Virus record (IMG/VR): IMGVR_UViG_3300032278_000078 | Coordinates: 1 to 30,218 of that record | Reading direction: 5' to 3' (one strand) | DNA length: 30,218 bases | Source of the DNA: a virus | Part shown: in pieces, positions 2,102 through 17,330 of the stretch | Position numbering within the stretch: position 1 is the first letter of the stretch | How the letters are laid out: each line of letters starts with the position of its first letter | Notes under the pieces: generated by a model | Told to the model about the DNA's origin: nothing | The model's input: the letters and a program-made list of their open reading frames with translations, nothing else | Databases searched by the model: none | Program-made: the position numbers and the translations under genes

Positions 2102-4561
2102 TTAGGCTGTTTGTAAAAGAGATTGGTCATTCGAATCGAAATAATCCTTTATTAATAATTGTTTAACTTCTTCTGTTAATTCCCATGTTATTACAACTCC
2201 TCTTGGGGCTGAAGTTGTTCTGTCGCCACCGATTCTTTTGCGGCTTGGCTTTATATTAAGGCGTGACATCGCTTTTGTAAAGTCTCTTACCGACATTTTA
2301 TTTTTGCTGTCGGTAAGTATGTCGTAAACTATTTTGAAATGTGGCATAGGTATAATAAGTTCTTCACCCGCAGTTGCTATCCAATTTTTTACATACCTTT
2401 GTGCAATTGTTATACCACCCGCATCGAATGCATTTGTAAGTGGTATATCAAGTAGTTCTGTAAAGAAGGGTAAATCTCCAGCTTTTATTGCGGTTGCAAA
2501 CTCTTCTAATACAGACATACTTATTTGACGCATTTCAGCTTTTGCTGTGTTCTCTAATACAGTATGAGCCATACGTTCATTGACTTTAAAAGTCTTTAAT
2601 ACTCCTGCTAGTTTGTACAGTTCAGCCTCCAGATCCTGGAGGTTTGTAAGTAACTCAGGATAGACTTCTTCTAGCTTACGTTCTTGTCGCGGTGCTACAT
2701 TGTAACGTCTGTCGCCTTCCTCTATTTTTACTGCGTCTGCACGATTAGTTAAAAATATAAAATTACAGAAGCTTGGTAATTCAACTTGATTCGCACGCAT
2801 AGCACGAATAGTTAGATTAGGTTCTGTTATTTGATGTTTAAGTTTGTCAGCCATTTTACCTACATTACCTGATGCTCCCATTCTGAATTCATCAACGGCT
2901 AAAAATAAAGCGGTTCTCATATATAAATTGAATTGTTCTTCTATATGTTCTAAGGCTCTCATTGGAACTTGTTGTTCTCCAAATAGAGGTTTAAGAACTT
3001 TATGTATGAACAAACCTTTACCGGTCCCTGGAACGCCTGTAAGTATCCAAGCGGTCATAGCTTTATTTTTATTTTGGTATATATAGGCAAGCCAATTGAT
3101 AAAGTGTTCACATTCAGTGGGAGCCCCACCAAGTATGTGTGAAATAAGTTTATAAATATTAGGTGTTATACCCGCTAAATTAATTGCTGTACCATACTCC
3201 AGATCTTCCTGGGGTGTTTGTGCAGCAAGCATATAGTCTGTATTTCTATACATGTTTACATAGTAAGGTACGTCAGTTAAGTTGATGCCCGTGTCATTGG
3301 AGGGATCGAATACCACACGGGCATCAGGAATAAAGTCAGGCATAGGTCGATTATGAGTTTTCATAAAGCCTTCTAGACTTGTTTTATTAGTGGGAGTGAG
3401 TGGAAATCTATCGTCAAATTGTTGCAGCTTAGTATTAAATAACCCGTTATAATAGGTATCAGTAAAGAAGTCTCTAAGTACTATAGGTCGCAAATTTTTC
3501 TCTTTGCTTATATCCTTTTCAAATTCTTCAAATATCCAACGATAAAATTCGGGATCGGCTTTTTCTATTTCCCATATAGGTTCACCTTTAAAGTTAAACA
3601 TGAAGTGTGGATTAGTTAATAAGAAGTAATAGCCACCGCTATCGCCTTCGTTAACATTACAGTTTACATACGGCTTTGAGATGCGTGAAACTTGTATGTT
3701 CATTTTATCTGGATTGTCTAGGAGCTCTACGAATTCATCGTTTATATTGAGGTTTTGTGTTTTAGCATTCTTTTTAGGTAATCCTATTTCTTTTCTTAGA
3801 TTATTTTTAATTTGTATACCTAAGTTACTCATACGTTCTCGATTAACTTCTTTAACGAGTGGAAATATATCAACAGTTTCTGAATTTCGATTAATCTTTA
3901 CAAATCGTCCACCAGATGCTGGGTCTTGTAAGTCAATAAAATTAGGGGGTGCTATGTATATAAGTTTAGAATTATCAGCTACTGATATATCTATTGGATA
4001 AGAAAGAGATTGTCCATTAGAGGATAGAGTGAGTTGTTCTGCAAATATAGGTGTTTCATAGTTAAGTGATCTAAACCATTCTTTTAAAGCACGAGGATAA
4101 ACAGGTCGAGCAAGCATAAAGAATAAATGCATTGATATAGTATTGCCTTTAAGTCCTAAGCTTGCACTTGCTTGTGCGATGTAACTTACATCTTGAAAGC
4201 AGGCGGGGAGATGGTGTACAAACTGTTTAGCAATGGAGCGGATGTCGTCCGTATCTACAGAGGTGGGAATGTCGGTATTGGGTAAGTGCAAACCATCTAA
4301 ATCAAATACTATATAGTCAGTTGAAGCATTACGGTTTGCCATACCTGCTCTGGGGGAGTTCTTTATTTTTTTCTTTAGTGAGCCTTTATGTAAACAATTG
4401 CCGGCCGCGGCATGTTTTGTAAGTGCATTATAGAATTCATCACATGAAGTTACCTCTTCGTGAAGTGATGTAAAGTTTTTTACTAATGGATAGGGCGTGA
4501 CACCTTTTGGTGAAATTTCCTTTACTAGTTTTTGTTTAGAGCTTAAAAATATAAGTTCCAT
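2102..4561 (-). CDS. Primase-helicase (AEP-like primase plus SF3/D5-type helicase)
   Basis: Bifunctional replication protein, 819 aa, expected to lay RNA primers and unwind the fork. The N-terminal part has an archaeo-eukaryotic primase pattern: FDLDG (D87, D89), a later H145 in SMHLFF, and D191. The C-terminal part has Walker A GVPGTGKG at 509-516, Walker B LFLAVDEF at 552-559 and the sensor strand IFLTN near 602-606, as in phage/plasmid P4-type and poxvirus D5 helicases. AGGAGG precedes the ATG. It lies directly downstream of the CsrA homologue and the DNA polymerase on the same strand, and the three probably share a transcript. The primase part is divergent; the helicase call is firm. Confidence 0.9.
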   Translation of the reverse strand: MELIFLSSKQKLVKEISPKGVTPYPLVKNFTSLHEEVTSCDEFYNALTKHAAAGNCLHKGSLKKKIKNSPRAGMANRNASTDYIVFDLDGLHLPNTDIPTSVDTDDIRSIAKQFVHHLPACFQDVSYIAQASASLGLKGNTISMHLFFMLARPVYPRALKEWFRSLNYETPIFAEQLTLSSNGQSLSYPIDISVADNSKLIYIAPPNFIDLQDPASGGRFVKINRNSETVDIFPLVKEVNRERMSNLGIQIKNNLRKEIGLPKKNAKTQNLNINDEFVELLDNPDKMNIQVSRISKPYVNCNVNEGDSGGYYFLLTNPHFMFNFKGEPIWEIEKADPEFYRWIFEEFEKDISKEKNLRPIVLRDFFTDTYYNGLFNTKLQQFDDRFPLTPTNKTSLEGFMKTHNRPMPDFIPDARVVFDPSNDTGINLTDVPYYVNMYRNTDYMLAAQTPQEDLEYGTAINLAGITPNIYKLISHILGGAPTECEHFINWLAYIYQNKNKAMTAWILTGVPGTGKGLFIHKVLKPLFGEQQVPMRALEHIEEQFNLYMRTALFLAVDEFRMGASGNVGKMADKLKHQITEPNLTIRAMRANQVELPSFCNFIFLTNRADAVKIEEGDRRYNVAPRQERKLEEVYPELLTNLQDLEAELYKLAGVLKTFKVNERMAHTVLENTAKAEMRQISMSVLEEFATAIKAGDLPFFTELLDIPLTNAFDAGGITIAQRYVKNWIATAGEELIIPMPHFKIVYDILTDSKNKMSVRDFTKAMSRLNIKPSRKRIGGDRTTSAPRGVVITWELTEEVKQLLIKDYFDSNDQSLLQTA

Positions 4562-11690: not shown

Positions 11691-11959
11691 TATTTAGTCC
11701 TCCATACTCTAAATTCATTTTCACTTAATTTACGATGAGAAGTTTTTCTACCATGGCGAATAAAATAAGAATGTATAGCCAGTGTTTTCTTAAGAGTATC
11801 AACAACAACAGAGTCTCCTACTTCCATATGGTCTCTAAGTTGTTTGAAAGCACTTGATCCTCCATGTCTTTGGTCAGGCATAGAGATTCCCTTCTCTATT
11901 TTATAAGTTTTTGGGTATTCTTCTTTAATTACCCAATCAGGTAGTTCTTTTTTAGCCAT
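11690..11959 (-). CDS. Small protein, DUF7303-like
   Basis: 89 aa. The order EKGISMPDQR (about 22-31), a VGDSVVVDT strand, RHGRK and a closing FRVWRTK resembles a small phage/plasmid family of unknown function (DUF7303 from memory) with a conserved G-D-S strand and a C-terminal R-V-W-R. Start overlaps the MoxR stop by one base with GGAG upstream. Translation coupled to the MoxR gene. Confidence 0.75.
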   Translation of the reverse strand: MAKKELPDWVIKEEYPKTYKIEKGISMPDQRHGGSSAFKQLRDHMEVGDSVVVDTLKKTLAIHSYFIRHGRKTSHRKLSENEFRVWRTK

Positions 11960-12993
11960 CAGATTATCTCCGCTGCATTTTTAGTTAACCATTGAGTATA
12001 TGCGTTACTTTTGGTTAAACTTTTGTTTCTAGAAAGAGCGTCACGCATTAACACTACTTGAAATTCAGGGGGCATTCGCTGTGCGTATGTACAGACTTTG
12101 TCAAAGTTTTTATCTGTTGACTTAGCTGCTAATGCACCTGCTATGGCGTACATGATTGCAGGTTCATCTTTTGGAATTTTTGCTGCATTAGGTTGTCTAA
12201 TAAGAGCGTCAATATCAGGCATTTTGTCCCTATTTTCTTTAAAAGTAACAAATTCTCCTGCTGGCCCTTGCCCTATTAATGATGCAACACCACTAAAAAA
12301 CCTTTCATCTTCTGAATTATCATTGAATTGAAGCTTTTTATTTAGGATTTCCCAACTTCTAGGAGTTGGAAATGCAGTATTACTTGAATCAAAGTTAAAC
12401 AATAGATTAGGTCTGAATCTTATAAATGAAGTTATAAGGTCTGTTATATTGTTTTGGGCTGCCCAATCACACCAATCATCTAAATTTACGTCCAATTGAT
12501 ATTGGGCAAATCTATTTTTCATGGGTGAAGTTAGGTCATATACAGCTGCAAGATCAGATAACCTGTTTCCTGCACCAATACATACCCAGCCTTCAGGTAA
12601 TGTGTAATCTCCAACTTTGCCATCAAGCACAAGTTGAAGGAAAGCATTTTGGGTAGCTTGAGGAGCAGTAGTTAACTCATCTAGAAAGAATATACCTTCT
12701 GGAGAGTCTCTATGCTCATATGGAAACACACTAGGCGGTGCCCAGTATGTCATGTGTGTTCCTTCAATTGCTTCATGGAAAGGGATTCCACGCACATCGA
12801 CAGGATCGAAGAGGTTAGAACGAAAATCCATTAATGCTCTATTTAATTGAGCTGCAATGGATTGTACTATTTGTGATTTACCTACACCAGGTGGGCCCCA
12901 TATAAATGTAGATATGTTTGCACGCACATTATCTATGAGCTCAGGGACAATATCTCTGGGTCTAATTGGTGGGATGTTCATTTCATTGGCCAT
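11959..12993 (-). CDS. MoxR-type AAA+ ATPase
   Basis: 344 aa AAA+ ATPase of the MoxR/AAA_5 type. Walker A GPPGVGKS (33-40), Walker B IFFLDE (101-106, D105/E106), sensor 1 N143 in GAGNRLSD, and a likely arginine finger in SPMKNRF. AGGAG precedes the ATG. It opens a six-gene run that ends with the VWA/metallopeptidase protein, the usual partner of MoxR ATPases. Known pairs include RavA-ViaA in bacteria and a MoxR/VWA pair in Acidianus two-tailed virus. Such ATPases remodel protein complexes; here the substrate could be a host enzyme, a phage replication complex or a virion part. Confidence 0.92.
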   Translation of the reverse strand: MANEMNIPPIRPRDIVPELIDNVRANISTFIWGPPGVGKSQIVQSIAAQLNRALMDFRSNLFDPVDVRGIPFHEAIEGTHMTYWAPPSVFPYEHRDSPEGIFFLDELTTAPQATQNAFLQLVLDGKVGDYTLPEGWVCIGAGNRLSDLAAVYDLTSPMKNRFAQYQLDVNLDDWCDWAAQNNITDLITSFIRFRPNLLFNFDSSNTAFPTPRSWEILNKKLQFNDNSEDERFFSGVASLIGQGPAGEFVTFKENRDKMPDIDALIRQPNAAKIPKDEPAIMYAIAGALAAKSTDKNFDKVCTYAQRMPPEFQVVLMRDALSRNKSLTKSNAYTQWLTKNAAEII

Positions 12994-13096
12994 AATTTAC
13001 TCCTATGTTGGCTATTAAAAATTACATTAAAAATTTCATCGTAGGGTATTTTACTTACAGTGTGCGTCAACTAGTGTCGCAGCATGTAAGCCGAGC

Positions 13097-13458
13097 GGAG
13101 TACAAGCTCGAATGGGGAACTTGCACTCCTATTCATGAGGAGATTCATGAAATTCAGTTGGAGTGCAGGCAGTCATAACGAGAAGGTTATTTTTTAAAAA
13201 CCTGCACTCCTATTCCACCTTGATTCCATGGTGAAATTTAGTCGTATGTATAGCTCTAGGTGACTTGCTAGTCTAAAGCCATACATACTTAATAAGTCGG
13301 AGTGCTATTACTGGACGTCTTTTTATCAGTTTGGCACTCCTGTTCATAGATAACTGTACGTATAACGATTGCAACTGTTTCGTCTCAATTCCTATGAAGT
13401 TTAGTCGGGATGCAGGCCTATTATTAATTATTGATGTTATTAAAAAATCCTGCACCCC
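13097..13458 (-). ncRNA. Tandem array of related hairpins, candidate structured RNA
   Basis: Minus-strand order from 13458: stem GGGGTGCAGG/CCTGCATCCC (32-base loop); TTCATAG/CTATGAA; GGAGTGC/GCACTCC (28-base loop); a 12-bp stem at 13288-13244; TTTCACC/GGTGGAA; GGAGTGCAGG/CCTGCACTCC (31-base loop); TTCATGA/TCATGAA; GGAGTGCAAG/CTTGTACTCC (13-base loop). Linkers recur: GACTAAA after an outer stem, TA or CA before one. Four stems are imperfect, and each imperfection is A-C on the plus strand but G-U on the minus strand, so the acting molecule is probably minus-strand RNA. Because the outer arms share sequence, alternative pairings are possible. Function unknown. Confidence 0.65.
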
Positions 13459-13465
13459 TAAATAG

Positions 13466-13539
13466 GTGTCCCAGTTCTTAATAGAGTTCTATCTTTATGG
13501 CAGGCCACTATTAAGATGTACGGACTAGGGACTGAACCC
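13466..13539 (-). ncRNA. Repeated element, copy A
   Basis: Shares three blocks in the same order with copy B: plus-strand GTGTCCCA (13466-13473), CACTATTAA (13506-13514) and TACGGA-C/T-TAGGGACTGAA (13519-13539). On the minus strand the last block folds as GGAC-GGG/CCC-GTCC, enclosed by GGCAGG/CCTGCC (13499-13504 and 13549-13554). Candidate RNA structure or promoter region for what lies below it. Confidence 0.5.
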
Positions 13540-13622
13540 GTCCTTCATCCTGCCTTATAATTGTGGTGCTTCCAATGAACCTCCAGCACCTGGAGTTTAC
13601 CAACCCTTAATGTCATTGGTCA

Positions 13623-13892
13623 CTATACGTTGAATATACTATTGAGTTCCTTAGTAATTTCACGAGTTATGATTTTCTTAATGGCTTCTGCAGATCTAGA
13701 TTGAGGACGTTTTATTGTTTTTCCTGCATCTGTATCTGTATCAGTCCATTGGATACCGTCTTGAAAAGTTTCTCCAACTTCTCTGACGAGCACATCTGTA
13801 AGGTCTTTAACAACCTTTTTTGAGTGCTGTTTGGCACATTTGTGCACAGCTTTCGCTATTTCTCGGTTAAGAGTGTTATATGGTTTTGACAT
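13623..13892 (-). CDS. Small basic protein, unknown function (89 aa)
   Basis: 89 aa, Lys/Thr-rich and helical, with a polar centre (WTDTDTDAGKTIKRPQSRSA). No family recognised. AAGGAAAT precedes the ATG. It stands alone between two folded non-coding regions, downstream of terminator T1, so it needs its own promoter between about 13893 and 14030, where element copy B lies. Confidence 0.75.
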   Translation of the reverse strand: MSKPYNTLNREIAKAVHKCAKQHSKKVVKDLTDVLVREVGETFQDGIQWTDTDTDAGKTIKRPQSRSAEAIKKIITREITKELNSIFNV

Positions 13893-13915: not shown

Positions 13916-14009
13916 GTGTCCCATTAATTTAATAGTTAACATAGGGTGGAACTCACCCTACTAACCACACTATTAAATCTTGTTAGTCTACGGATTAGGG
14001 ACTGAAACC
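13916..14009 (-). ncRNA. Repeated element, copy B
   Basis: Second copy of the three-block element: GTGTCCCA (13916-13923), CACTATTAA (13968-13976) and TACGGATTAGGGACTGAAACC-type block (13989-14009; two differences from copy A). Between the first two blocks lies a nested stem TTAATAG/CTATTAA with AGGGTG/CACCCT inside. It starts 20 bases below terminator T1 and ends 24 bases before the ATG of the 89-aa gene, so it covers that gene's promoter or leader. Confidence 0.5.
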
Positions 14010-14029: not shown

Positions 14030-14063
14030 AAAAAAAGCCCAACCGGGAGTTATCCGATTGGGC
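14030..14063 (-). terminator. Intrinsic terminator T1
   Basis: Minus-strand stem GCCCAA-t-CGG / CCG-g-TTGGGC (one G-U pair) followed by seven T. It ends the transcript of the 245-aa gene after about 370 bases of untranslated sequence. Confidence 0.88.
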
Positions 14064-14347
14064 TAATTTAGACAGAACTCTTACAATCCACTATTTTTAA
14101 AGTTTTCGTTCGGTCGGGAAGGTGTCGTCCTTGGTATCGCTCTTATTAAATTACGATATCACTATATCTTCAATCTCATCTTTTAAATAAGATTGATCTT
14201 CAGATATCCACTACAACGACCAATGTTTAATAAAAACGTTCTAGCTCTTCTGTCCCGGCTAGAATTTAGGCCAGGTGCATACGAGGCACTGGTCTCGCTT
14301 ACTTTCAATTAGTGTTAAGTCGAGTAAGTAAGCAACTCTCTTAACAT

Positions 14348-14361
14348 CTGCTCCGGGGGAG
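14348..14361 (-). repeat. 14-base GC-rich repeat, intergenic copy
   Basis: Minus-strand CTCCCCCGGAGCAG. Exact copies lie at 5614-5627 (inside polA) and 6765-6778 (end of the 82-aa gene), with a one-mismatch copy at 4345-4358 (inside the primase gene). All four have the same orientation. CTCC/GGAG can pair around CCC. Confidence 0.7.
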
Positions 14362-14367
14362 TTCTAA

Positions 14368-14436: not shown

Positions 14437-15174
14437 TTAAGCGGAATCAGCTACAGATTGTGTGAACTCTGAACTGGCTTTTTGCATTACTTTACCAGCC
14501 GTAGGTTCTTTATGCTGACTAGTGTGCCATGCGGCTAATCTAGTCAATCTAGCTTCAACAGCTTGTTGAACTCTTTTCCTATCCAATGAGAACTTACCAG
14601 GTAAGCCAAAGTCAGGAAAGAGATCCGAAGTTGCTTCGCGAAGAAGTCTTGCCTTATATCCAAGGTCAATCATTTTCTCTTCTCTTTGAATCAACCAGTC
14701 AGGCATTGCTTTTTCAGTGCCTACTGTTTGAGAGGAATTTACGTAGTCATATACACAACTAATAAATTCACCCCAGGTAGTAGTACACTCACGAAGCATT
14801 TGAATACCAGTTGTTGGTGCGTCAGCAACTAACAGTGGTATTCTACCCGCAACGACAGTTTTCACGTCTTTGTTGAATTTTGTAGCCTTACCTTTAGCAA
14901 CTACAGACTCAGCTTTGTCATCAAAGACAAGCATTATGTTTGCAATTGCAGAAGGGTTAGGTTCAAGTGCGTCATCATCATTTACACGATAATCACGATA
15001 GAGATAAGTAGGGTATAAAGTCCCTCTATTTTGAGGTTCTCTAGCTTCAGCACCTTCAGGATCCGCAAGCGTATCATCTAAGATATCATCTTGTGAAGTC
15101 TCTTCTTGTGGTAGAAGTTCTACCGTCTCTAGTTCCGATGGGTCAAATAACTCATCATTTTTGCTTTTTGCCAT
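14437..15174 (-). CDS. Protein of unknown function (245 aa)
   Basis: 245 aa, not recognised. The first 50 residues are acidic and probably disordered (DPSELETVELLPQEETSQDD); the middle has beta-strand character (IANIMLVFDDKAESVVAKG); the last 80 residues are helical and basic. AGGAG precedes the ATG. It is the only gene between motif E1 (64 bases upstream) and terminator T1, with a long folded 3' UTR, so it appears to form its own transcription unit. The modular acidic and basic layout could suit a DNA-binding accessory protein, but this is a guess. Confidence 0.82.
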   Translation of the reverse strand: MAKSKNDELFDPSELETVELLPQEETSQDDILDDTLADPEGAEAREPQNRGTLYPTYLYRDYRVNDDDALEPNPSAIANIMLVFDDKAESVVAKGKATKFNKDVKTVVAGRIPLLVADAPTTGIQMLRECTTTWGEFISCVYDYVNSSQTVGTEKAMPDWLIQREEKMIDLGYKARLLREATSDLFPDFGLPGKFSLDRKRVQQAVEARLTRLAAWHTSQHKEPTAGKVMQKASSEFTQSVADSA

Positions 15175-15237: not shown

Positions 15238-15269
15238 CCGTCCCCTGAAAAATGCACCAGCATTTTTCA
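15238..15269 (-). promoter_or_regulatory. Hairpin-plus-tail motif E1
   Basis: Minus strand: stem TGAAAAATGC/GCATTTTTCA with loop TGGT, then tail TCAGGGGACGG. Lies 64 bases before the start of the 245-aa gene. Shares loop TGGY and tail TCAG-NN-GACGG with E2 and E3. Promoter or conserved leader element. Confidence 0.6.
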
Positions 15270-15281
15270 AAGAATAATGGT

Positions 15282-15355
15282 GGAGTGCAGATAACGCCAT
15301 ATTTTTACAGTATTTAGTCTGCACTCCTATTCATATGTGTTTAACTCCATATGAA
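15282..15355 (-). ncRNA. Isolated copy of hairpin-array module
   Basis: Minus strand: TTCATATG/CATATGAA hairpin (10-base loop), TA linker, then GGAGTGCAG/CTGCACTCC with a 28-base loop. Same order, linker and arm sequence as the array at 13097-13458, 1.8 kb away. The loop sequences differ. Confidence 0.62.
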
Positions 15356-15436
15356 ATTCTTTTATATACTAGCCCAAGATATTATAAGTATATAAGAGAC
15401 ACCCTATTTTCATCGTAAGGTTATAATCTACTTGGC

Positions 15437-16991: not shown

Positions 16992-17330
16992 GTGGTACAC
17001 AGTGGTACACATTAAGCTATTGAATATATTGAAGAAGTTGCTGTACAGCGTGTTTTGTGTACCACTAACGATTTAGGCGTGGTGGTACACACTAAGTCAT
17101 TGATTTTGTGGGGTATTTCAGACGTAATTGGGCTTGTGTACCATGTGTACCGTCTAATATTCATATTCATACATTCTATGATAAATATCTATGGTCGATG
17201 GTCTATGGTTAAACAGCGAAATTAGCTGGTACACGTGGTACACGTGGTACACATTATGAAATGTCCTTTTAAATCAACAGCTTAGGTGTGTACCACGTCC
17301 GTGGCGATTGCCGGTGTGTACCGGTACACA
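16992..17330. repeat. GTGGTACACA iteron cluster, candidate origin
   Basis: Twelve copies of GTGGTACACA or close variants in 339 bases. Direct: 16992, 17002, 17082, 17226, 17235, 17244. Inverted: 17056, 17135, 17144, 17287. The last two form a perfect 16-bp palindrome, TGTGTACCGGTACACA (17315-17330). Copies at 17226-17253 are tandem with a 9-base period. An AT-rich stretch lies inside. The layout is that of an iteron origin bound by an initiator, or of a multi-site operator. No iteron-type initiator gene is recognised in the window. Confidence 0.7.

Follow-up and report, generated by a model that had tools for sequence, protein, structure and literature searches.

A run of palindromes directly before the moxR gene of a tailed phage raises the question of what kind of element it forms, i.e. 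on which strand it acts, whether it acts as RNA or as DNA, and whether its sequence or its shape is retained in evolution. The window analysed here, i.e. the whole stretch of 30,218 nucleotides, is a 30.2-kb virus record of a tailed phage encoding portal, major head and Terminase_6 proteins as well as a family A DNA polymerase, a DUF5906 primase and a MoxR/DUF2201-VWA pair. As judged from its sequence and those of its relatives, the element at 13097-13458 is a real, lineage-specific structured array of the minus strand with a new layout.

Layout and genomic setting of the array

Read on the minus strand, eight consecutive local stem-loops are present in the order O1, I1, O2, H4, I2, O3, I3 and O4, in which the O stems are of the GGAGUGC-type, the I stems have the form UUCA..UGAA and H4 is a 16-pair GUAUGUAU stem. 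Together with a fold energy far below that of shuffles on this strand, this bears out the tandem hairpin array with four outer stems (O1-O4) that a first-pass annotation had described. O1 (GGGGUGCAGG/CCUGCAUCCC, 13407-13458) contains one G-U pair and is joined by the linker GACUAAAC (13399-13406) to I1 (UUCAUAG..CUAUGAA, 13343-13398), which has a long loop, followed by O2 (GGAGUGC/GCACUCC, 13299-13340), the linker GACUUAUUAA (13289-13298) and H4 (13244-13288), the latter containing two G-U pairs and having AAGUAUGUA/UACAUAC in common with units of the relative G001. The linker GACUAA (13238-13243) leads to I2 (AUUUCACC/GGUGGAAU, 13212-13237; one U-G pair) and to the perfect stem of O3 (GGAGUGCAGG/CCUGCACUCC, 13160-13210), and the linker AACUGAAU (13152-13159) to I3 (UUCAUGA/UCAUGAA, 13132-13151) and O4 (GGAGUGCAAGUUC/GAGCUUGUACUCC, 13097-13129; two G-U pairs). 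The recurring linker forms are GACUAAA (twice), GACUUAUUAA and AACUGAA, with UA or CA preceding the O stems. GGAGUGC is repeated within the window and in this sense conserved in sequence, which a recent duplication would explain.

Both genes flanking the array are encoded on the minus strand, moxR for a MoxR-like AAA+ ATPase (11959-12993) being downstream and an 89-aa ORF (13623-13892) being located on the other flank. The next conserved gene upstream codes for a 245-aa protein (14437-15174, minus strand), with a strong terminator (14036-14064) between this gene and moxR. The earlier assignment of the array to the leader of the MoxR-VWA operon is right with regard to position, but a conserved promoter-like motif (CCCTACGATG, 13037-13046, minus strand) sits between the array and moxR. 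This motif, CCYTRCGATG, has a second site in the window in the leader upstream of the 245-aa gene (15411-15420, minus strand) and is found in 12 leaders across six records, often directly 3' of a terminator, suggesting a possible promoter element. The motif comes first in the 245-aa leader, whereas at moxR the hairpins come first; as the motif follows the array there, the array may form the 3' part of the preceding transcript. No intrinsic terminator, i.e. a GC-rich stem with a U-run, qualifies at O2-O4, the only call being a weak overlapping one at 13468-13453, and since the O stems have no U-run at their 3' side they are not intrinsic terminators.

Folding and strand bias

The minus strand (376 nt) folds with -129.3 kcal/mol compared to -80.6 kcal/mol for shuffled sequences (z -8.1, 0/100), while the fold of the plus strand is weaker (z -4.2). 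The leader contains five strong stems versus 1.5 expected and a maximum of 4 in 40 shuffles. Pair probabilities are about 1 for O1-O4, H4 and I3, and I1 and I2 are formed in the predicted fold of the array. Alternative folds between neighbours, proposed earlier on account of shared arms, can be drawn, but pairing between the arms of different O stems has a probability of about 0, so that switching between neighbours is unsupported at equilibrium.

The array contains six G-U pairs on the minus strand (13280/13252, 13276/13256, 13234/13215, 13124/13102, 13119/13107 and 13455/13410), no A-C pair on the minus strand and no G-U pair on the plus strand. The first-pass annotation had correctly recognised the wobbles as G-U on the minus strand but counted only four, and paired 13102 with 13125 instead of 13124. 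Across the leaders and intergenic stretches of the clade, an unbiased stem search in six related phages yields 36 G-U pairs in sense and 7 in antisense orientation, compared to about 1:1 in shuffled sequences; without terminator stems the numbers are 24:7, corresponding to a one-sided binomial of about 0.002 as calculated by hand and uncorrected for kinship among the phages. These biases (6:0 and 36:7) and the compensation in paralogous and homologous stems described below support the annotated minus-strand structured RNA. The G-U bias supports a function as single minus strand, for which RNA would be the simplest reading; a single strand of DNA could yield an identical G-T bias.

A DNA element, whose palindromes would serve replication, recombination or packaging as cruciforms or single-stranded hairpins, fits this bias toward one strand, and DNA folding also beats shuffles (z -6.4). 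We consider it improbable, because the stems are always intergenic, strand-consistent with transcription and present at two leaders instead of one locus, and because a likely iteron region, conserved in sequence, resides elsewhere (17.0-17.3 kb). That region (16993-17295) consists of direct and inverted GTGTACCA repeats, possibly replication iterons, the sequence of which is kept in sister and related phages, in contrast to the array in the same phages.

A second module copy and the sister phages

The module extends beyond the array, as a second leader also carries a copy, an observation going beyond the first-pass annotation. Upstream of the 245-aa gene, the leader of this genome at 15282-15355 again consists of a UUCA..UGAA stem, UA and a GGAGUGC stem, comprising I5 (UUCAUAUG/CAUAUGAA, 15330-15355) and O5 (GGAGUGCAGA/UCUGCACUCC, 15282-15327), both on the minus strand. 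I and O stems are about 2 nt apart in modules M1-M3 and M5, and the loops are unrelated among modules.

Two short contigs, 3300006789_007225 and 3300008050_001792, represent sister phages with an 81-83% identical 245-aa protein and, in 3300008050_001792, a 91% identical terminase. Of the module they retain O5 alone, in which pair 2 is G-U and the loop is unrelated, while I5 is missing, its gain or loss being a clean indel. A further hairpin of this leader (GAAAAAUGC/GCAUUUUUC, 15246-15269, minus strand) reads GAAUCGUGC/GCACGAUUC in the sister phages, resulting in three compensatory pairs between window and sisters. Contig 3300006789_007225 terminates at TTATTTAGGAGTGCA, where its own O1 begins, and because contigs frequently break at repeats, the array is probably also present in this phage; the array itself is contained in one contig, in addition to the O1 start in this breaking contig.

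In an alignment of the O arms including the sister copy (six rows, O2 being short above seven pairs; arms cut by hand and the register chosen, not found), 95% of the cells are paired compared to at most 65% in slid registers. Three pairs of the O stems carry double changes; the arms change from A-U to G-C at column 3, from G-C to A-U at columns 9 and 10 and three times from G-C to G-U. We regard such patterns as good, if indirect, evidence of selection on pairing in the array.

That one genome carries the I-UA-O module in two leaders, the stem sequence and the 2-nt spacing being constant, would be expected from a sequence-specific RNA operator. In this case the I-O double hairpin would be bound by a protein of phage or host origin that co-regulates moxR and the 245-aa gene, the array offering several cooperative sites. 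Such an operator is unlikely, given that the sister phages have O5 without I5, that relatives with 74-88% identical MoxR are devoid of such stems and that the loops are unrelated. Mimicry of a ribosome-binding site by AUAGGAGU was also considered and rejected, since this sequence, despite a match of 8 nt to the moxR site, is absent from O1 and from the sister O5.

By its two-hairpin layout, put RNA is the nearest described kind, an analogy stopping short of established membership: HK022 put consists of two adjacent stem-loops near a phage promoter within about 70 nt (PMC9378689), and the module shares with it two stem-loops and a very short linker (I-O about 2 nt). In put-like processive antitermination the two stem-loops near the promoter would modify RNA polymerase, put itself acting on the zinc-binding domain of this enzyme, resulting in read-through of downstream terminators. 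In the 245-aa leader, the promoter-like motif is followed by a pair of stem-loops that lie within about 60-100 nt and are separated by 2 nt, the size and two-stem layout being as in put (PMC9378689), and the strong terminator at 14036-14064 lies between the 245-aa gene and moxR. The freely variable loops, in contrast to the particular bulges and bases needed by put, the several tandem copies and the placement of the moxR array after the terminator make this mechanism very improbable.

Turnover of stem-loops among wider relatives

Four relatives (MoxR 74-88% identical) carry long stem-loop units of unrelated sequence in the same place before moxR. The linkers at the ends of these units, such as CACCAGUUUCC, CACUAAUUUGU or CACUAGUUCCC, show a resemblance to GACUAAAUUUC and AACUGAAUUUC of the window that is suggestive only. 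One unit present in G001 and G002 is almost the same inside, while its outer stem differs by compensatory transitions, and in the outer stem of five U units 8/13 pairs are changed on both sides (0/500 shuffles). Inside the U units of the relatives an ACGACC..GAUAC motif is kept, and for these units at least this is a sign of specific recognition. The hairpin UGCG..CGCA adjoining moxR (13063-13081, minus strand) is common to the window, G001-G004 and even L353, a distant phage (43% identity of the 245-aa homologue), supporting homology of the locus despite the turnover of its hairpins. In relatives with 46-51% identical MoxR, intergenic regions are mostly short and long leaders mostly absent.

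Two further observations concern repeats in this clade. L211 (1554-2355), L003 (4269-5000), L004 (4601-5000) and L005 (upstream of 5001) contain a repeated unit with a long variable outer stem and an inner GACACGACC..GAUACNGU motif, several of which are followed by ACCA-type linkers; among the matches listed, this unit is confined to this phage clade. L353 has a different repeat array (GGCAGTTTAGGT, 4196-4467) before its moxR segment, the fold of which is no better than chance.

Units being gained, lost, duplicated and swapped whole is also the behaviour of selfish or neutral palindromic repeats, either REP/BIME-like or PeSL cassettes, which would be kept as recombination joints and not for an RNA function, and PeSLs are known in T4-like phages (PMC4503421). 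However, selection on pairing is implied by the compensatory changes and by the bias of G-U pairs toward the sense strand, the scans of viral and genome collections revealed no copies elsewhere, and a RAYT (Y1 transposase, PF01797) was absent from the four phage records searched, which are possibly incomplete, with controls being positive. This renders neutral palindromes decidedly unlikely.

PeSLs, i.e. promoter-early stem-loop cassettes of T4-like phages and, by the title of ref. 37 in PMC4503421, promoter-terminator composites, are by analogy the nearest described kind in modularity. Both are modular stem-loops of phage leaders beside a promoter, a putative one in the present phage, gained or lost among close relatives, whereas the stems of the array have no U-run, occur up to eight in tandem and show compensation; the order of promoter-like motif, a putative promoter, followed by stem-loop holds at 15420-15282 and is reversed at the moxR array. 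REP/BIME elements are tandem intergenic palindromes between co-directional genes, some having an mRNA-stabilising effect. The array shares this tandem arrangement between co-directional genes but is not dispersed through the genome, as only two loci exist in the window versus many dispersed near-identical copies, and its stems differ between close relatives. GOLLD and ROOL are large structured non-coding RNAs found in phages, from which the array differs by consisting of local stem-loops only, without an Rfam match and without long-range architecture.

Searches for related arrays and known families

No other occurrence of the array itself was found in 2.9 million viral contigs, and no description of such an array was found in the open literature searched. 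In line with the annotation, which knew of no described RNA family with this layout, no family fits: Rfam 15 gives 0 matches at or above the gathering threshold for the window and the loci of five relatives, the best sub-threshold match in the region reaching 23.7 bits versus 58. Scans of viral and genome collections for the I-O module pattern returned only matches judged to be chance, i.e. in one phage gene of six near-identical contigs, in one membrane-protein-like reading frame and one each in four unrelated genomes. A looser scan for GGAGTGC hairpins revealed no array outside the window among the matches listed. With ACGACC..GAUAC, the matches listed with pairing outer stems beside the motif belong to the same phage clade; the remaining ones listed look like chance in GC-rich DNA. 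No tRNA genes were found, i.e. the array is not a tRNA array, and a CRISPR array was dismissed, the repeats being stem arms with irregular spacing.

A proposed role in the phage transcript

The sequences show that the stems are real, form preferentially on the minus strand, accept G-U pairs on it and are retained by compensation while loops and whole stems change, and that units were duplicated, moved into another leader, and gained or lost whole. As the presence and position of the stem-loops outlast stem and loop sequence, the folded shape probably does the work in cis. We favour, with a probability of roughly 0.4, an array of stem-loops in phage mRNA that acts in cis, tolerates sequence change, is gained and lost module by module, and probably protects, punctuates or regulates the transcript. 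According to this model, the array would be part of a phage mRNA transcribed from the minus strand, with eight independent stem-loops directly upstream of moxR, and the folded block would protect the polycistronic mRNA from nucleases of the host and punctuate it, thereby setting level and processing of the moxR segment. The array would act neither as base-pairing guide nor as a single sequence-specific binding site, and the shared ACYAR-type linkers might, as a guess, be exposed processing points. In T4 and its relatives, phage mRNA is heavily attacked by RNases and regulated via leader structures (PMC3014915).

A bolder and rather unlikely reading is a new kind of phage RNA locus, i.e. a fixed-place cassette array whose whole units are swapped between related phages and whose architecture of stem-loops and ACYAR-type linkers would be inherited although almost the entire sequence is replaced, possibly under an arms race against a nuclease or an RNA-binding defence of the host. 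If true, phages would be able to preserve a non-coding RNA locus through its shape and position despite sequence turnover, so that ordinary homology searches would miss it, and the array would be a small test case for the host pressure behind such turnover, be it nucleases, antitermination or defence systems.

Neighbouring structured elements

Further structures were observed on the minus strand around the array. Two copies of a structured element UUCAGUCCCUARUCCGUA..UUAAUAG..CUAUUAA..GGGACAC are located 5' of the array (13466-13537) and 5' of the 89-aa ORF (13916-14006). At 14297-14365, 3' of the 245-aa gene and before the terminator at 14036-14064, AGAACUCCCCCGGAGC is followed by an H-type pseudoknot conserved in six phages, a candidate for a new RNA family, with 100% of the cells paired and 8/15 pairs double-changed in a hand-cut, arms-only alignment (A10). 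A second H-type pseudoknot at 13563-13620 (CCAAUGA..GGUGCU..UCAUUGG..AGCACC) is common to L217, G003 and G002, with 6/17 pairs double-changed and all cells paired.
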